Shown: one piece after another, positions 23,812-58,087 of the stretch
Layout: the number at the start of each line of letters is the position of its first letter
How positions within the stretch are numbered: position 1 is the stretch's first letter
DNA from: Geotoga petraea
GTDB lineage: Bacteria > Thermotogota > Thermotogae > Petrotogales > Petrotogaceae
Length of the DNA: 64,000 nucleotides
Reading direction: 5' to 3'
NCBI RefSeq assembly: GCF_900102615.1
Contig: NZ_FMYV01000005.1
Coordinates: forward strand, 62,001 to 126,000
Program-made: the position numbers and the translations under genes
The notes under the pieces: generated by a model
The model's database searches: none
Seen by the model: only the letters and a program-made list of their open reading frames with translations
What the model was told of the DNA's origin: nothing

Positions 23812-23831
23812 TATTAACACCTCACAACAAT

Positions 23832-23845
23832 TGACTGAACAGTCA
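23832..23845. promoter_or_regulatory. Palindromic operator, probable TetR-family site
   Basis: TGACTG-AA-CAGTCA, a perfect 6-2-6 inverted repeat placed 9 bases downstream of the -10, where a bound repressor would block initiation. The size and TGAC/GTCA ends are typical of TetR-family operators. Confidence 0.7.
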
Positions 23846-23854
23846 CTTACAAAA

Positions 23855-23883
23855 ATTATACTTCTTTTTATTTTTTTAGTCAA
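23855..23883 (-). promoter_or_regulatory. Sigma-A promoter of tetR and the radical SAM gene
   Basis: The minus strand has TTGACT (23883-23878), exactly 17 bases, then TATAAT (23860-23855). One of the best promoters in the window. Confidence 0.8.
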
Positions 23884-24077
23884 CGCTGATATATTTTGTC
23901 GTATTTAAAACAGTTTAATTACTTTATATTTACAATTTTAGCTTATAGTCTTTGTTTAGAAGATTATTAATAAACATTAATTTAGGAGTATATATGTAAC
24001 ATAATTTTAATTATATTGTGTTTAAATGTTTACTTTTTTGATAATAGTCTTTTTCTATACCGATATTAATAGTGTTA

Positions 24078-24086
24078 TGTTATAAT
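24078..24086 (+). promoter_or_regulatory. Extended -10 promoter for thiI operon
   Basis: TGTTATAAT, 31 bases before the TTG start of thiI, with no clear -35. The rest of the 234-base region between tetR and thiI is AT-rich and shows nothing else I can name. Confidence 0.5.
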
Positions 24087-24117
24087 TTTATTGACACTAA
24101 ATATGGAGGTTAATAAA

Positions 24118-33706: not shown

Positions 33707-34906
33707 ATGAAAAAAATTGTATTTATATTTTTGATAACTTTAAGCCTTACAGTTTTTTCGGCTGACTATATTTTCTTTTTTCTTGGGGATGGGATGGGCA
33801 TTAACCATTTAAAATTAGCGAACGAATACTCCATCAAAAAATATGGTAAAACTCTAAATTATAATTCCCTTGAAAATTTATCAATCTTAAATACAGAATC
33901 TTTAGATGGCGTTACTGATTCAGCAGCAGCCATAACCTCTTTTATGAGTTTTGAAAAAACAAACAATAATAAAATAAACATCGATAAAGATGGAAATAAA
34001 CTAAACCCTGTTTCTTACCATTTTAAAGATACAAATTATAAAATAGCTGTTATAACTTCTAATTCAATTGTTGATGCTTCTCCAGCAGGAATATACGCCA
34101 AATCAAATGACAGGAATAACTATATATCTATAGCAAATCAACTTTTAGAAAGCCAGTTCGACCTTTTCATTGGAGGAGGCCGAGCTTTCTTTACCGAAGA
34201 AGAAATATTAAAAAAAGGATATATGTATAAAAGAAAAATTGATATCCAAGCTGTTGAACCTAAAAATGAAATAATTCTGACCTCTTATTCAAACAATCCT
34301 TTTATATTCGACCAGGATGAAAAAGATTATTATGAGAAAGCTATAAAATATTCTCTAAAAAAATTTGAAGGAGAAAAGTTTTTTATTTTTATTGAAGGCG
34401 GAAAAATAGATCACGCTTCTCATGCTCATGATACATTGTCAATGATTGAAGAAATAATTGCTTTTGATAAATCTCTAAAACCAGCCATAGATTTTTATAA
34501 TAAAAATCCAGATAATACAATTATTCTTTTCACTGCAGATCATGAAACTGGTGGTCTTTCTTTGGGTGATGGTTTTATAAATATAAACAACCTGAGTAGT
34601 CAAAAGATATCTTACGATAAACTTATATCAATGATTAATAATAGTGATGATTTTGATGATTTTCAGAAAAAATCTAATGTTTATTTTTTGAATGAAGAAA
34701 ATTATAATGAGGCTCTTTCCGATAATAATGTTTCTTATTTTGATGATTTTGTTCAAAATTATTTTAATCACTATAATGATTTAGCAGGTATTAAATGGTC
34801 AACTTTTGGACATACCATAAATAATGTGGCTTTGTTTTCTAATGGAATTAAATTCGATAAATCAGTTCATTTAACAGATATTTTTTGGGATATAATTAAA
34901 AAATGA
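33707..34906 (+). CDS. Secreted alkaline phosphatase
   Basis: 399 residues with a clear signal peptide (MKKIVFIFLITLSLTVFSA). Alkaline phosphatase superfamily metal and catalytic segments: FLGDGMG near residue 25, DSAAAITSF with the phosphoserine position near residue 72, FIEGGKIDHASHAHD and ADHETGGLSLG in the last third, and a late GHT histidine motif. It hydrolyses phosphomonoesters outside the cytoplasmic membrane. It is last in the lgt unit and is followed by a hairpin terminator. No PHO box was seen. Confidence 0.92.
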   Translation: MKKIVFIFLITLSLTVFSADYIFFFLGDGMGINHLKLANEYSIKKYGKTLNYNSLENLSILNTESLDGVTDSAAAITSFMSFEKTNNNKINIDKDGNKLNPVSYHFKDTNYKIAVITSNSIVDASPAGIYAKSNDRNNYISIANQLLESQFDLFIGGGRAFFTEEEILKKGYMYKRKIDIQAVEPKNEIILTSYSNNPFIFDQDEKDYYEKAIKYSLKKFEGEKFFIFIEGGKIDHASHAHDTLSMIEEIIAFDKSLKPAIDFYNKNPDNTIILFTADHETGGLSLGDGFININNLSSQKISYDKLISMINNSDDFDDFQKKSNVYFLNEENYNEALSDNNVSYFDDFVQNYFNHYNDLAGIKWSTFGHTINNVALFSNGIKFDKSVHLTDIFWDIIKK

Positions 34907-34912
34907 TATCTT

Positions 34913-34944
34913 TTTCATATTTTTTTAAAATATGAAATTTTTTT
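34913..34944 (+). terminator. Intrinsic terminator after alkaline phosphatase
   Basis: TTTCATATTTT (34913-34923), three-base loop, AAAATATGAAA (34927-34937), then seven T residues. Confidence 0.8.
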
Positions 34945-35007
34945 CATTATTTGCTAATAACAGCATATTTTGACTTTAAATCACGTTTAAATAAATATAA
35001 TCGGGTT

Positions 35008-35035
35008 TTGTAAGCTACTTCTAATGAGATATAAT
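35008..35035 (+). promoter_or_regulatory. Predicted promoter of the candidate small RNA
   Basis: TTGTAA (35008-35013), 16 bases, TATAAT (35030-35035). It lies between the phosphatase terminator and the structured region; predicted start about 35042. Confidence 0.6.
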
Positions 35036-35152
35036 TTTATTGCAGAACGCTTGGATGGTTACCCTCCCTCTTGAAGTGTTTCTGTCCCCGGAAAATTTTT
35101 TAGTGAATTAATTTTATTCACTTAATTAAAGGCCTTTTTAGGCCTTTTTTTA
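35036..35152 (+). ncRNA. Candidate structured small RNA, about 110 nt
   Basis: The 309-base gap between the phosphatase and the next gene has no plausible ORF but holds a locally GC-richer segment with three stems. Stem 1 is CAGAACGCTT (35043-35052) with AAGTG-T-TTCTG (35074-35084), ten pairs including one G-U and one bulge; inside it GGATGG and CCCTCC (35053-35067) form a second hairpin. Stem 2 is AGTGAAT/ATTCACT (35102-35122). The third is a terminator. It has its own promoter and terminator, and the next gene has a separate promoter after the terminator, so a free-standing RNA fits better than a leader. I recognise no Rfam family. Confidence 0.55.
35128..35152 (+). terminator. Intrinsic terminator of the candidate small RNA
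   Basis: AAAGGCC, loop TTTTTA, GGCCTTT and a seven-T run at 35128-35151. Confidence 0.85.
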
Positions 35153-35181
35153 TTGTTTTTTTGCTTTAAATATGGTAATAT
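35153..35181 (+). promoter_or_regulatory. Predicted promoter of the ligase-like gene at 35216
   Basis: TTGTTT (35153-35158), 17 bases, TAATAT (35176-35181), immediately downstream of the small-RNA terminator. Confidence 0.55.
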
Positions 35182-35215
35182 ATAAAGGTGTTAAATCACT
35201 TTAGGAGGGATTACT

Positions 35216-37825
35216 TTGAATACAAAAAAAATACCTGGAGATATACTGTTTTTATTTTTAACTTTTTTGCTTGTCCCTTTTGTAATGGTGCCTAATTGGG
35301 TATATGAATATTCTACTCAAAAACATCTTGTTTTTGCTTTTATGATCACTTCGTTATTAATATTTTACCTTTTTAAAAATAGTTATCTCAATAAAATAGA
35401 ACTCAAAATTCCTCATTTGTTGTTTGGAGTTTTTGGTCTCTCTACAATTTTGTCTCTTATTTCAGTATATATTGAAAACCCCCATTATTTTAGGTTTTCG
35501 CTTGAAGTATCTTTATATACTATTATACTTGTATTTTTTTCAATTCTTGTAACCAACAAATTTGGTAAGGACTTCAGTTTTATTGAACATGGATTGTTAG
35601 TTTTCTTGATAACTGGAACAATTATTGCGTTCGACGGTTTACTGAACAAGTTCTTTGGATTTGACCTTTTTTTTGGAAATATTGGAGATCCTTCAGCAAG
35701 AATAAGTTTGAGAACTACTATAGGTAATCCCAACTTTGTTTCAGATTACTTAGCACAATTAATACCGATTTCCATTTATTTCATTTTAAAACCAAATAAT
35801 TCAATTTACTTAAAAATATATTCTTTTATAACTTTATTTATGAGTATTTGGGTTGTTTTATTTGCACAAACTCGTTCAATATATTTAGGTACAGTTGTAG
35901 GAATGATTGTTGCATTAATATCTTTCTTTATAGCTAAAAAAAACAAAGAAGATCTTAAATATTTTAAGTCTAAACAATTTTTAAGCTGGTTTTTTATCGT
36001 AGTTTTTGCTTTTATATTTTTATTTATGATGTTTAATTTTGAAACACCTTTCAATAAAGGTGGGGAAGTAGTTGCTACTGATAGATTTGCTGCTATGAAT
36101 TCTATTTCTTCTTGGGATGAAAGATCTTTGTCCTGGAACGCTGCTATAAAGCAGTTTAGCGATCCAGACCATAATATTCATAAATTTATTGGTTCAGGAA
36201 TAGGGACCTATCCTTTATACGCAATAGAATATATGTCTGAATTACAGCAAGAAGAACCGCAAAGGTATTTATATGCTTGGAATAATTTCAAAAGAGCTCA
36301 TAATGATTATTTACAAGCTTTAGGGGAAACTGGCATTATAGGCTTTTTGGCAATTTCATTATTATTGATATATTTAATTATCTATTTTTTCAAAACTTTA
36401 AGAAATAATTTAGATTTAAATAAATTGTTGTTATTTATTTTATTAGGATGGAGCGTTACTGTAACTGTCGCTCATGCTGGAACAGAATTTGCACTACATA
36501 TGCACCCAAATCTATTATTAGTTTTATTTATTTTATCTATAGCAGTTTCTGATCAGTTTAATGATAAAACTAAATTATTTAAAATTAAAACCAATATAAA
36601 ATATATATTGATACCTATAGTTGTAATAGGTATTGTAGTTACTGTTTTGAAAGTTCAAAGTACTGCTTCTGAAGCATATTTTAAAAAAGCACAGTATCAA
36701 TATAACAAACTAAATGAAATTGATAACGCATTAAAAAATCAATTCCCTACTTTACTTAAAAATCTTGAGCAACAATATAGCCAATACAAAAATGAACTGA
36801 ATAACTATGCACCAGGATCTTTACAATTTACTCAAATCACTCAAACGCTTGATGAGATTGAAGAAAGAGCAAAAGAAGTGCAAAATGCTCAGTCTAATTA
36901 TAGTTTAGAAGCAAGAGATGCATATGAAAAATCTATGGATTTCTTCTTAAAATCTCTTGATTCAAACCATACTTTTGGTAAATCGATGTTTTATTTGGCT
37001 CAACTTTTTGTTGAGACTCCTTATAGATATGATGACGTAAGTTATGATGATTTACCTGATGCTTTTAACTTGAAACAGGATGAATATAGGCATGTAATTG
37101 AAAAATATAAAGGAAGCATAGATCTCATGCCATTTGAAAAAGCATATCTAAGAGAAGATTTGAGTATGATTTATTCAGAGAATATAACCAACGAAAATGT
37201 TAAAACAAAATTAGTCCTTTTACAAGGCATTTTAGATGAAATAACTTATTTGAAAACTTCTTTTGCATATTTTACTGAAAAGAATACATATAAACTAATA
37301 GCTAAATTATATTATAATATGATAATACAATTAGATACATTGATTAATTCAATACCTGATAAAAATCAAGAAATAAGAGAATTAATGGATAAATACTACA
37401 ACTCTTTTAATCACTGGAACATTAAAACCATAGAAATACTACCTGGTGGTTGGAATAGGTTCCCAGAATGGGAAAATACCTACGCAGAAATCATTTCTAT
37501 GAATATAAACCTATTAAAATACATAGATAATGAAAAGATTATGCAAAATATATTTTATTTCATGGAAAGAGATGGTTGGGCTAATTATCACATGGCAAAT
37601 CTGAATAGAGGTATACCAGATAGCTCTTTATCTATTCTACAAGATCTTTATTTCAACATTGAAAATACAAATATCAAAAAATCTTTAGTAGATAATGTTG
37701 TTAATTCTTACAAAGATGTCTATAATTACTACGTTAATTTATCAAAAGATAGCAACGTTTACAATAGATACAAAAATAGAATTGAAAGATTTTTAGAAAG
37801 TTATAGATATTTTCAGAGGCGATGA
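35216..37825 (+). CDS. O-antigen ligase/polymerase-like membrane protein with helical repeat C-terminus
   Basis: 869 residues. The first 470 contain about 11-12 membrane helices; the Wzy_C-type motif lies near RAHNDYLQALGETGIIGF, which matches the conserved H-N-x-x-L-x-x-x-x-E-x-G loop of O-antigen ligases. After about residue 485 comes a long, coiled-coil and TPR-like soluble domain. Such proteins join or polymerise glycans at the outer membrane face; no glycosyltransferase genes are nearby. TTG start with AGGAGGG. First gene of a five-gene unit that ends with rsmD. Confidence 0.85.
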   Translation: MNTKKIPGDILFLFLTFLLVPFVMVPNWVYEYSTQKHLVFAFMITSLLIFYLFKNSYLNKIELKIPHLLFGVFGLSTILSLISVYIENPHYFRFSLEVSLYTIILVFFSILVTNKFGKDFSFIEHGLLVFLITGTIIAFDGLLNKFFGFDLFFGNIGDPSARISLRTTIGNPNFVSDYLAQLIPISIYFILKPNNSIYLKIYSFITLFMSIWVVLFAQTRSIYLGTVVGMIVALISFFIAKKNKEDLKYFKSKQFLSWFFIVVFAFIFLFMMFNFETPFNKGGEVVATDRFAAMNSISSWDERSLSWNAAIKQFSDPDHNIHKFIGSGIGTYPLYAIEYMSELQQEEPQRYLYAWNNFKRAHNDYLQALGETGIIGFLAISLLLIYLIIYFFKTLRNNLDLNKLLLFILLGWSVTVTVAHAGTEFALHMHPNLLLVLFILSIAVSDQFNDKTKLFKIKTNIKYILIPIVVIGIVVTVLKVQSTASEAYFKKAQYQYNKLNEIDNALKNQFPTLLKNLEQQYSQYKNELNNYAPGSLQFTQITQTLDEIEERAKEVQNAQSNYSLEARDAYEKSMDFFLKSLDSNHTFGKSMFYLAQLFVETPYRYDDVSYDDLPDAFNLKQDEYRHVIEKYKGSIDLMPFEKAYLREDLSMIYSENITNENVKTKLVLLQGILDEITYLKTSFAYFTEKNTYKLIAKLYYNMIIQLDTLINSIPDKNQEIRELMDKYYNSFNHWNIKTIEILPGGWNRFPEWENTYAEIISMNINLLKYIDNEKIMQNIFYFMERDGWANYHMANLNRGIPDSSLSILQDLYFNIENTNIKKSLVDNVVNSYKDVYNYYVNLSKDSNVYNRYKNRIERFLESYRYFQRR

Positions 37826-56971: not shown

Positions 56972-58087
56972 TCAAATGTTTTTTATTATCTTTTGAAATA
57001 TATCTATGCCAATATTTATCACTTTTGAAGAAGGTAAGAATTGTGGATTGTGTAAACCAAATTGTTGCCCTTCGTTTGTTCCAAGCCAAAACATAAAAGA
57101 AGGATATTTTTGGGTAAAAAATCCAAAATCTTCTCCTGTAAATTTGAATCCTACATCAGTTATTTTATATTCGTCTTTCAAAATTTCTTCTACCTTGTCA
57201 TATAATTCCGCATCAACAATGACTTCTTTATAAAATGAGCCCATATCAAATGTTGTTTCAACACCTGTTATATTTTCTATCCCATTTAGAATATTTTTCA
57301 TATTTTCTCTATACTTTTCACAAGATTTTGAATCTGTACTTCTTAAAGTTCCTTCAATTTTAGCCGTAGGAGCAATTATGTTTCTAACATTACCTGCTTG
57401 CATTTTACCAACACCAACAACCAAAGGAATTTCTGGATTTTTTGGCATTTTTTCTATTTGGTCTAAAAACATTCTTGCTGCGTCTAAAGCGTTTTTGCCT
57501 TTATCTGGTCTGGCACAATGAGCTGCAACTCCCTTGAAATCAACATCAAATTCCATGGCAGAAGCAAACAATGTTCCTTTTGTGGATGAAATAGTACCAA
57601 GGTCGTATTCATCAGTAACATGCAACGCAAAAGCGTTTTTTATTTTATATTTATCAAGAAAACCTGTTTTTAATATTTTTTCTGCACCACCACCATGCTC
57701 TTCAGCAGGCTGAAAAACAAATATTAGATTCTTTTTAATGTCATTCTTCATAACTTCTAAAATAGTTCCATAAAGAATAGATGAATGCACATCATGTCCA
57801 CATGCATGCATGTTGTTGTTTTTAGAAGAGAAATCTACACCTGTTTTTTCTTTTATTGGAAGAGCGTCTATATCTGCTCTAAAAAGAGTGTATTCTTCTC
57901 CTAAATTTTGTGTATACACGCATATCAAACCAGTTTCAAGAAGACGAAATAGTTCTAAGTTGGAGTTGTATTTTTCTTTTGCCTTTCTTATGTTATCTAC
58001 TATAAATTGTGTTGTTTTATATTCGTTAAAAGCGACTTCTGGAATTTTATGCAATTCTTCCCTAAATTCTTTTGGAGATAATATCAT
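56972..58087 (-). CDS. M20D amidohydrolase, probable N-acetyldiaminopimelate deacetylase
   Basis: 371 residues. M20 metal ligands are in MHACGHDVHSS and VFQPAEEHGGGAEKI; TGEDFGFF and the late LHNPQFLP histidine are also present. M20D covers N-acyl-amino-acid deacylases; in an operon with DapH and a class III aminotransferase the natural substrate is N-acetyl-L,L-2,6-diaminopimelate. ATG at 58087 behind GAGGTG overlaps the aminotransferase stop (ATGA). Last gene of the lysine operon. Confidence 0.85.
   Translation of the reverse strand: MILSPKEFREELHKIPEVAFNEYKTTQFIVDNIRKAKEKYNSNLELFRLLETGLICVYTQNLGEEYTLFRADIDALPIKEKTGVDFSSKNNNMHACGHDVHSSILYGTILEVMKNDIKKNLIFVFQPAEEHGGGAEKILKTGFLDKYKIKNAFALHVTDEYDLGTISSTKGTLFASAMEFDVDFKGVAAHCARPDKGKNALDAARMFLDQIEKMPKNPEIPLVVGVGKMQAGNVRNIIAPTAKIEGTLRSTDSKSCEKYRENMKNILNGIENITGVETTFDMGSFYKEVIVDAELYDKVEEILKDEYKITDVGFKFTGEDFGFFTQKYPSFMFWLGTNEGQQFGLHNPQFLPSSKVINIGIDIFQKIIKNI

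Follow-up and report, generated by a model that had tools for sequence, protein, structure and literature searches.

Results

Organisation of the intergenic region

The window analysed here is a stretch of 64,000 nucleotides from Geotoga petraea. Within it, a 309-nt gap (34907-35215) separates an alkaline-phosphatase-family gene (33707-34906) from an O-antigen-ligase-like gene (35216-37825), and a promoter, a bulged stem, a second stem and an intrinsic terminator all lie inside this gap (Table 1). An earlier sequence-only reading had proposed a free-standing small RNA (sRNA) with these elements and offered no function for it; the targets and regulon described below come from the present analysis. 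Each of them was recovered, as was the separate promoter claimed for the next gene, while the main stem was found to contain 11 pairs with a bulged U rather than 10 pairs. The same reading took the gap to be the only one above 300 bases, which does not hold with the gene calls used here (another, of 306 nt, lies at 23812-24117). This other gap is just longer than 300 nt when open reading frames of at least 90 amino acids are called, and it has no Rfam match in the scan of the window.

Table 1. Features of the sRNA locus (window coordinates) and copies of the upstream palindrome in the window's genome (contig coordinates)
Feature	Position	Strand	Evidence
sRNA promoter, TTGTAA-16-TATAAT	35008-35035	+	Motif match; TATAAT invariant in 12 homologues, -35 region conserved
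sRNA, putative transcript of ~109 nt (predicted start 35042, end in terminator T-run)	35042-35150	+	Conservation, fold, promoter, terminator
Main stem-loop, 35042-35052 with 35074-35085, bulged U at 35079	35042-35085	+	Fold, alignment
Loop motif UACCCUCCCUC, anti-Shine-Dalgarno	35060-35070	+	Invariant in 12/12 homologues; complementary to ribosome-binding sites
Tail motif CUGUCCCCGGAA, partly in stem 3' arm, predicted second pairing site	35082-35093	+	Invariant save one position in 12 homologues
Second, A+T-rich stem, 35102-35108 with 35116-35122	35102-35122	+	Only in the window's branch
Intrinsic terminator, hairpin 35128-35147 and T-run	35128-35150	+	Sequence-varying terminator hairpin 3' of the RNA in 12/12 homologues
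Separate promoter of gene 35216-37825, TTGTTT-17-TAATAT	35153-35181	+	Conserved in G004 and G001
Palindrome ATGAAATTTTTTTCAT, candidate operator of the sRNA	34932-34947	.	Identical upstream of the RNA in G004 and G001; copies elsewhere
Copies of palindrome ATGAAATWTTTTTCAT, window's genome	C1 46103, 75386, 142719, 296669, 303706, 311564; C2 178876, 220985; C3 165630, 253078		

The sRNA promoter matches the consensus at ten of 12 positions. Promoter-like sites are not rarer here than in shuffled sequence (2 found against 2.4 expected); a TATAAT with a TTGA/TTTG-type -35 element at the same spacing is kept across 12 homologues. The terminator is the sole one in 450 bases, where 0.2 would be expected by chance, and the fold of the region is more stable than that of any of 200 shuffles (z = -4.4). 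As had been pointed out, the sequence stands out from its AT-rich background: the RNA core, with its C-rich blocks CCCUCCC and CUGUCCCC, has 51% G+C compared to 29.5% for the window. The promoter of the downstream gene is kept in the two relatives that share this gene order.

Conservation of the RNA within one bacterial family

Clear homologues were found by blastn in a search of 61 relatives, and a covariance model was built from eight homologues. This model detected a single copy of the RNA in each of 12 genomes, out of 21 in the family and spanning six of its eight genera, and none in the others among the 103 genomes searched in the class; further weak matches fell on the opposite strand of the same loci. 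Conservation in relatives, named as a check by the sequence-only reading, was thus borne out, with loop UACCCUCCCUC and tail CUGUCCCCGGAA nearly invariant in the alignment of the homologues while the stem drifts. Covariation in the main stem, another check named there, fared less well. Pairing is kept in 98.8% of the stem cells of the alignment, but only one pair shows changes in both partners, a count reached by 55 of 500 shuffles, and four show a change in one partner. This covariation is modest to weak, and the conservation of promoter, terminator and motifs is the stronger argument for the RNA: 12 genomes, with two gene contexts between them, retain promoter, RNA core and terminator.

No diverged copy was detected near the syntenic genes of three genomes without the RNA (G015, G013 and G007), with filters off. 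A pattern scan of the whole collection returned three matches, of which only a Thermotogota MAG contig (equivalent to G009) is real; those in Woesearchaeota and Ruminiclostridium lack a promoter, stem or terminator and are chance matches. The scan of viral contigs returned none. Judged from these comparisons, the RNA has persisted over a long span of evolution within a single bacterial family.

The RNA is free-standing and belongs to no curated family

Searching the gap with covariance models gave no Rfam match at the gathering threshold, and the weak matches (E ~1) are attributable to chance. Across the whole window only a tRNA reached its cut-off, with the best matches of the gap falling far below theirs. 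Membership in a curated Rfam family (6S, SRP, tmRNA, RNase P, riboswitches or others) was rejected on this basis, in agreement with the earlier statement that none of these cores is recognisable, Rfam being empty at both thresholds. Nor does the RNA appear to be a small protein gene: reading the homologue sequences revealed no frame common to them, and a possible ATG at 35055 is absent in most.

The gene context differs between the two branches of the family. The O-antigen-ligase-like gene comes next after the RNA in the window's branch (the window's genome, G004 and G001). In the Petrotoga branch (nine of the 12 genomes) its place is taken by an rsmD-like gene in convergent orientation, and the ligase-like gene lies kilobases away. 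This change of downstream gene means that the RNA cannot be a leader of the 35216 gene. The phosphatase gene upstream is a constant neighbour on the same strand, and its strong orthologs occur in exactly the 12 genomes that carry the RNA. In one draft assembly (G016:C8:5688-6587) the phosphatase frame contains internal stops and both RNA and promoter are intact, which indicates that the RNA is independent of that protein. Between the two branches the operons on either side have been rearranged, and the RNA and the phosphatase gene sit at the breakpoint.

Taken together, the conserved promoter and terminator of its own and the two gene contexts support the proposed intergenic RNA, and on sequence grounds the stretch is a real, free-standing sRNA gene. 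The gene, its conservation and its independence from the downstream gene are all directly visible in the genomes compared.

Two C-rich motifs complementary to the glnA leader

Both invariant motifs are C-rich anti-Shine-Dalgarno sequences, the loop being the reverse complement of GAGGGAGGGUA and the tail of UUCCGGGGACAG. The RNA presents an invariant, unpaired C-rich motif complementary to ribosome-binding sites, as is characteristic of anti-Shine-Dalgarno RNAs. Loop complementarity alone was rejected as a target predictor, as it scored equally well in G015, which lacks the RNA. Since the loop alone matches ordinary ribosome-binding sites, leaders were ranked instead by co-fold energy, a measure that includes the cost of unfolding both RNAs. 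The leaders came from sampled stretches covering ~58% of the window's genome, 18% of G012 (Petrotoga branch) and 16% of G015.

In the sampled ~58% of the window's genome, glnA ranked first of 1144 leaders by co-fold energy at both 37 and 55 °C. Its leader contains, in order, CGGGGACAG, a short spacer, a hairpin, AGGAGGG and the start codon, and includes a perfect 9-nt complement to the tail. In the predicted duplex the tail, the 3' arm of the stem and the loop are all engaged, with the mRNA hairpin held between them. Shuffled RNAs do not select the glnA leader, and the glnA leader of the RNA-less G015 gives only -3.3 kcal/mol. Both elements are present upstream of glnA in G001 (CGGGGAAUAAGGAGGG), where the energy is weaker and gives rank 19 on the same scale.

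The leaders of rpsJ, eno and a PTS gene in the window's genome also score well. Tail 8-mers are mildly enriched in the leaders of this genome (P 0.04; for 7-mers P 0.2). A simple motif search of the sampled 58% found no match to Hfq. The strong hairpin of the glnA leader (contig C4, ~57500-57640, minus strand) is followed by ACTTTTT just before the ribosome-binding site, and could be an attenuator placed between two predicted sRNA sites.

Predicted targets in the Petrotoga branch

Scored against 352 sampled leaders of G012, metQ, gltB and proA took ranks 1-3 by co-fold energy at 37 °C. Sites are kept in the orthologous leaders of gltB (5 genomes), hom (9), homocitrate synthase (9), proA (6), metQ (3) and glnA (2), with energies that vary from strong to weak (the weak ones include homocitrate synthase of genus g4 and hom of some genomes). 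The hom leader of genus g4 contains GGAGGGUAAC, a perfect 10-nt complement to the loop, with CGGGGA upstream. Among the surroundings read in G012, two-element matches at the ribosome-binding site were found for proA, metQ and hom. Matches to argG and ilvB were discarded since they lie inside coding sequence, and a high-scoring G012 aminotransferase leader was set aside because it is sticky to shuffled RNAs too.

Across whole genomes the two-element pattern shows no excess over a reversed control, and genome-wide motif enrichment alone is weak. The target lists differ between the two branches, partly owing to the absence of hom, gltB and homocitrate synthase from the window's branch. We therefore treat the list of predicted targets as a supported hypothesis rather than a result.

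Two of these leaders have further features. In nine genomes the homocitrate synthase leader has a ribosome-binding site AAAGGAGGG(A/T)GGGT, then a conserved hairpin of ~35 nt, then the start codon; the hairpin sequence differs between genera and the pairing is kept. Initiation of this gene may need the hairpin to unite ribosome-binding site and start codon. Upstream of G012 metQ (866-977 of its locus, minus strand) lies a SAM-I riboswitch (91.5 bits) with a terminator, followed by the predicted sRNA site, and this leader may have two layers of control.

An upstream palindrome shared with amino-acid catabolic genes

The palindrome ATGAAATTTTTTTCAT, identical in G004 and G001, is centred ~102 nt upstream of the predicted RNA start. 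The form ATGAA-W6-TTCAT occurs 8 times in 1.25 Mb of the window's genome compared to 0-2 times for each of seven control palindromes; all 8 copies are intergenic and most lie beside amino-acid catabolic genes. With one mismatch allowed there are twelve intergenic copies, one of them at the RNA. Their neighbours include arginine deiminase, the urocanate hydratase operon, gcvT, glutamate dehydrogenase, indolepyruvate oxidoreductase and a glutamine-synthetase-like gene. One copy lies by an acetate CoA-transferase operon in which, judging from the protein sequences, genes for 3-keto-5-aminohexanoate cleavage and for lysine 2,3-aminomutase come next, and another by glyA and an aminotransferase followed by butyrate-kinase-like genes. 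The remaining copies adjoin a second aminotransferase, a solute-binding transporter protein and a membrane protein. Few copies were found in G012 and G015, and several of these likewise neighbour aminotransferase or transporter genes. The Petrotoga branch has only degenerate palindromes, one of which, GAGAAAAAAATTTCAT (14/16), overlaps the spacer between the -35 and -10 elements of the RNA promoter.

From the identity of its neighbours, ATGAAATWTTTTTCAT looks like the mark of an amino-acid-fermentation regulon comprising arginine deiminase, genes for lysine fermentation, for histidine and for glycine cleavage, an aromatic oxidoreductase, glutamate dehydrogenase and aminotransferases. The palindrome is a line of evidence independent of the pairing analysis, and it too implicates amino-acid metabolism. 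Since the palindrome lies upstream of the promoter, its position suggests, as a guess, an activator in the window's branch. No described regulator with a matching palindrome was found in the literature.

Discussion

Proposed role of the RNA

The RNA probably belongs to a network controlling amino-acid breakdown, and would block the start signals of genes for glutamine and amino-acid synthesis, including glnA in the window's genome. On balance, we favour a trans-acting non-coding RNA that is co-regulated with amino-acid fermentation and would silence nitrogen assimilation and amino-acid synthesis or uptake by pairing with mRNA leaders; here we infer transcription, the sign of regulation and pairing in the cell.

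An RNA of ~109 nt would be made from its own promoter, probably switched on together with the amino-acid fermentation genes. Its control would lie with a putative transcription factor binding ATGAAATWTTTTTCAT, whose identity and sign we infer. The loop UACCCUCCCUC and tail CUGUCCCCGG would pair, in antiparallel order, with ribosome-binding sites and the G-rich elements immediately preceding them, and this pairing would prevent translation from starting on mRNAs for nitrogen assimilation and for amino-acid synthesis or uptake. The candidate targets comprise glnA in the window's genome and, in the Petrotoga branch, gltB, proA, metQ, hom and homocitrate synthase. During amino-acid fermentation, ammonia and amino acids would be in ample supply and the catabolic regulon would be expressed along with the RNA, which would then lower glutamine synthetase and amino-acid synthesis or uptake.

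A bolder model, which we put forward tentatively, is that the RNA constitutes the repressing arm of a new amino-acid-fermentation regulon of the Thermotogota. Here, a factor for arginine, lysine, histidine, glycine and aromatic breakdown would make the RNA, and two-site pairing, with an mRNA hairpin between tail and loop, would shut off glutamine synthetase and amino-acid synthesis.

Alternative explanations

The RNA could act in trans as an anti-Shine-Dalgarno RNA with other main targets, such as carbohydrate, energy or stress genes, in which case the nitrogen and amino-acid theme would be partly a selection of striking cases. The many ribosome-binding sites matched by the loop, and the good scores of the rpsJ, eno and PTS-gene leaders, are in keeping with this. 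We nevertheless consider it rather unlikely, given that glnA came first in an unselected ranking, that sites are kept in orthologous leaders, and that the independent palindrome evidence also indicates amino-acid metabolism. The loop and tail might instead be contacts for a protein, the RNA serving for example as a sponge for a CsrA-type protein or as a housekeeping RNA. Both motifs are conserved beyond the need of pairing to diverse targets, and there is one conserved GGA in the tail; a CsrA sponge, however, would need several loop GGA motifs, and this one is the only unpaired GGA conserved. A housekeeping role is disfavoured by the absence of an Rfam family match, and protein binding leaves the perfect glnA complement unexplained. 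This explanation appears improbable.

Action in cis is less probable still. The RNA always lies just downstream of the phosphatase gene on the same strand and shares its distribution, as would a 3' untranslated element or a processed tail of the phosphatase mRNA. Against this, a conserved promoter stands between gene and RNA, the RNA and promoter of G016 are intact beside a broken frame, and the conservation of loop and tail suits pairing in trans; we regard such an origin as very unlikely. We give almost no credence to a leader or attenuator of the O-antigen-ligase-like gene. The RNA is upstream of that gene in three genomes, but in the other nine the gene is elsewhere and the RNA faces a convergent one, and where the two are adjacent a conserved promoter of the gene's own follows the terminator.

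Comparison with known systems

In Thermotoga maritima, of the same phylum, transcriptome data yielded 12-13 putative non-coding RNAs without defined structure or function (PMC3636130); the present RNA was not found outside its family. One Rfam sRNA family has been counted in Thermotogota (PMC9029176). We found no report in the literature of a mechanism for any Thermotogota sRNA. Few sRNAs are annotated in this phylum, and for the one described here targets and an operator can be predicted and a circuit put forward for testing, which would link amino-acid fermentation to nitrogen assimilation in a deep-branching lineage.

RoxS/RsaE and other C-rich RNAs of Firmicutes use single-stranded C-rich motifs to pair with the ribosome-binding sites of metabolic genes. 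The RNA described here differs from RoxS/RsaE in structure and predicted targets, and has no Rfam match. Another parallel is NfeR1 of rhizobia, a member of the alpha-r14 'cuckoo' sRNA family. NfeR1 takes part in the nitrogen stress response, where it silences ntrBC by acting on the translation initiation region, and it folds into three hairpins, each with CCUCCUCCC (PMC10746234). Like NfeR1, the present RNA is free-standing, has a conserved sigma-70 promoter and exposes unpaired C-rich anti-Shine-Dalgarno motifs that are ultraconserved while the stems vary (PMC10746234). Unlike NfeR1, it has one such hairpin, with loop UACCCUCCCUC, and a different tail motif, CUGUCCCCGG; it belongs to another phylum, has no sequence match to NfeR1, and its predicted targets are the enzymes themselves. 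Membership in alpha-r14 was rejected, as that family has three CCUCCUCCC hairpins. The resemblance to a rhizobial anti-Shine-Dalgarno nitrogen RNA suggests independent evolution. By sequence and architecture the RNA falls in neither NfeR1 nor RoxS/RsaE, and is a new family of a known kind.
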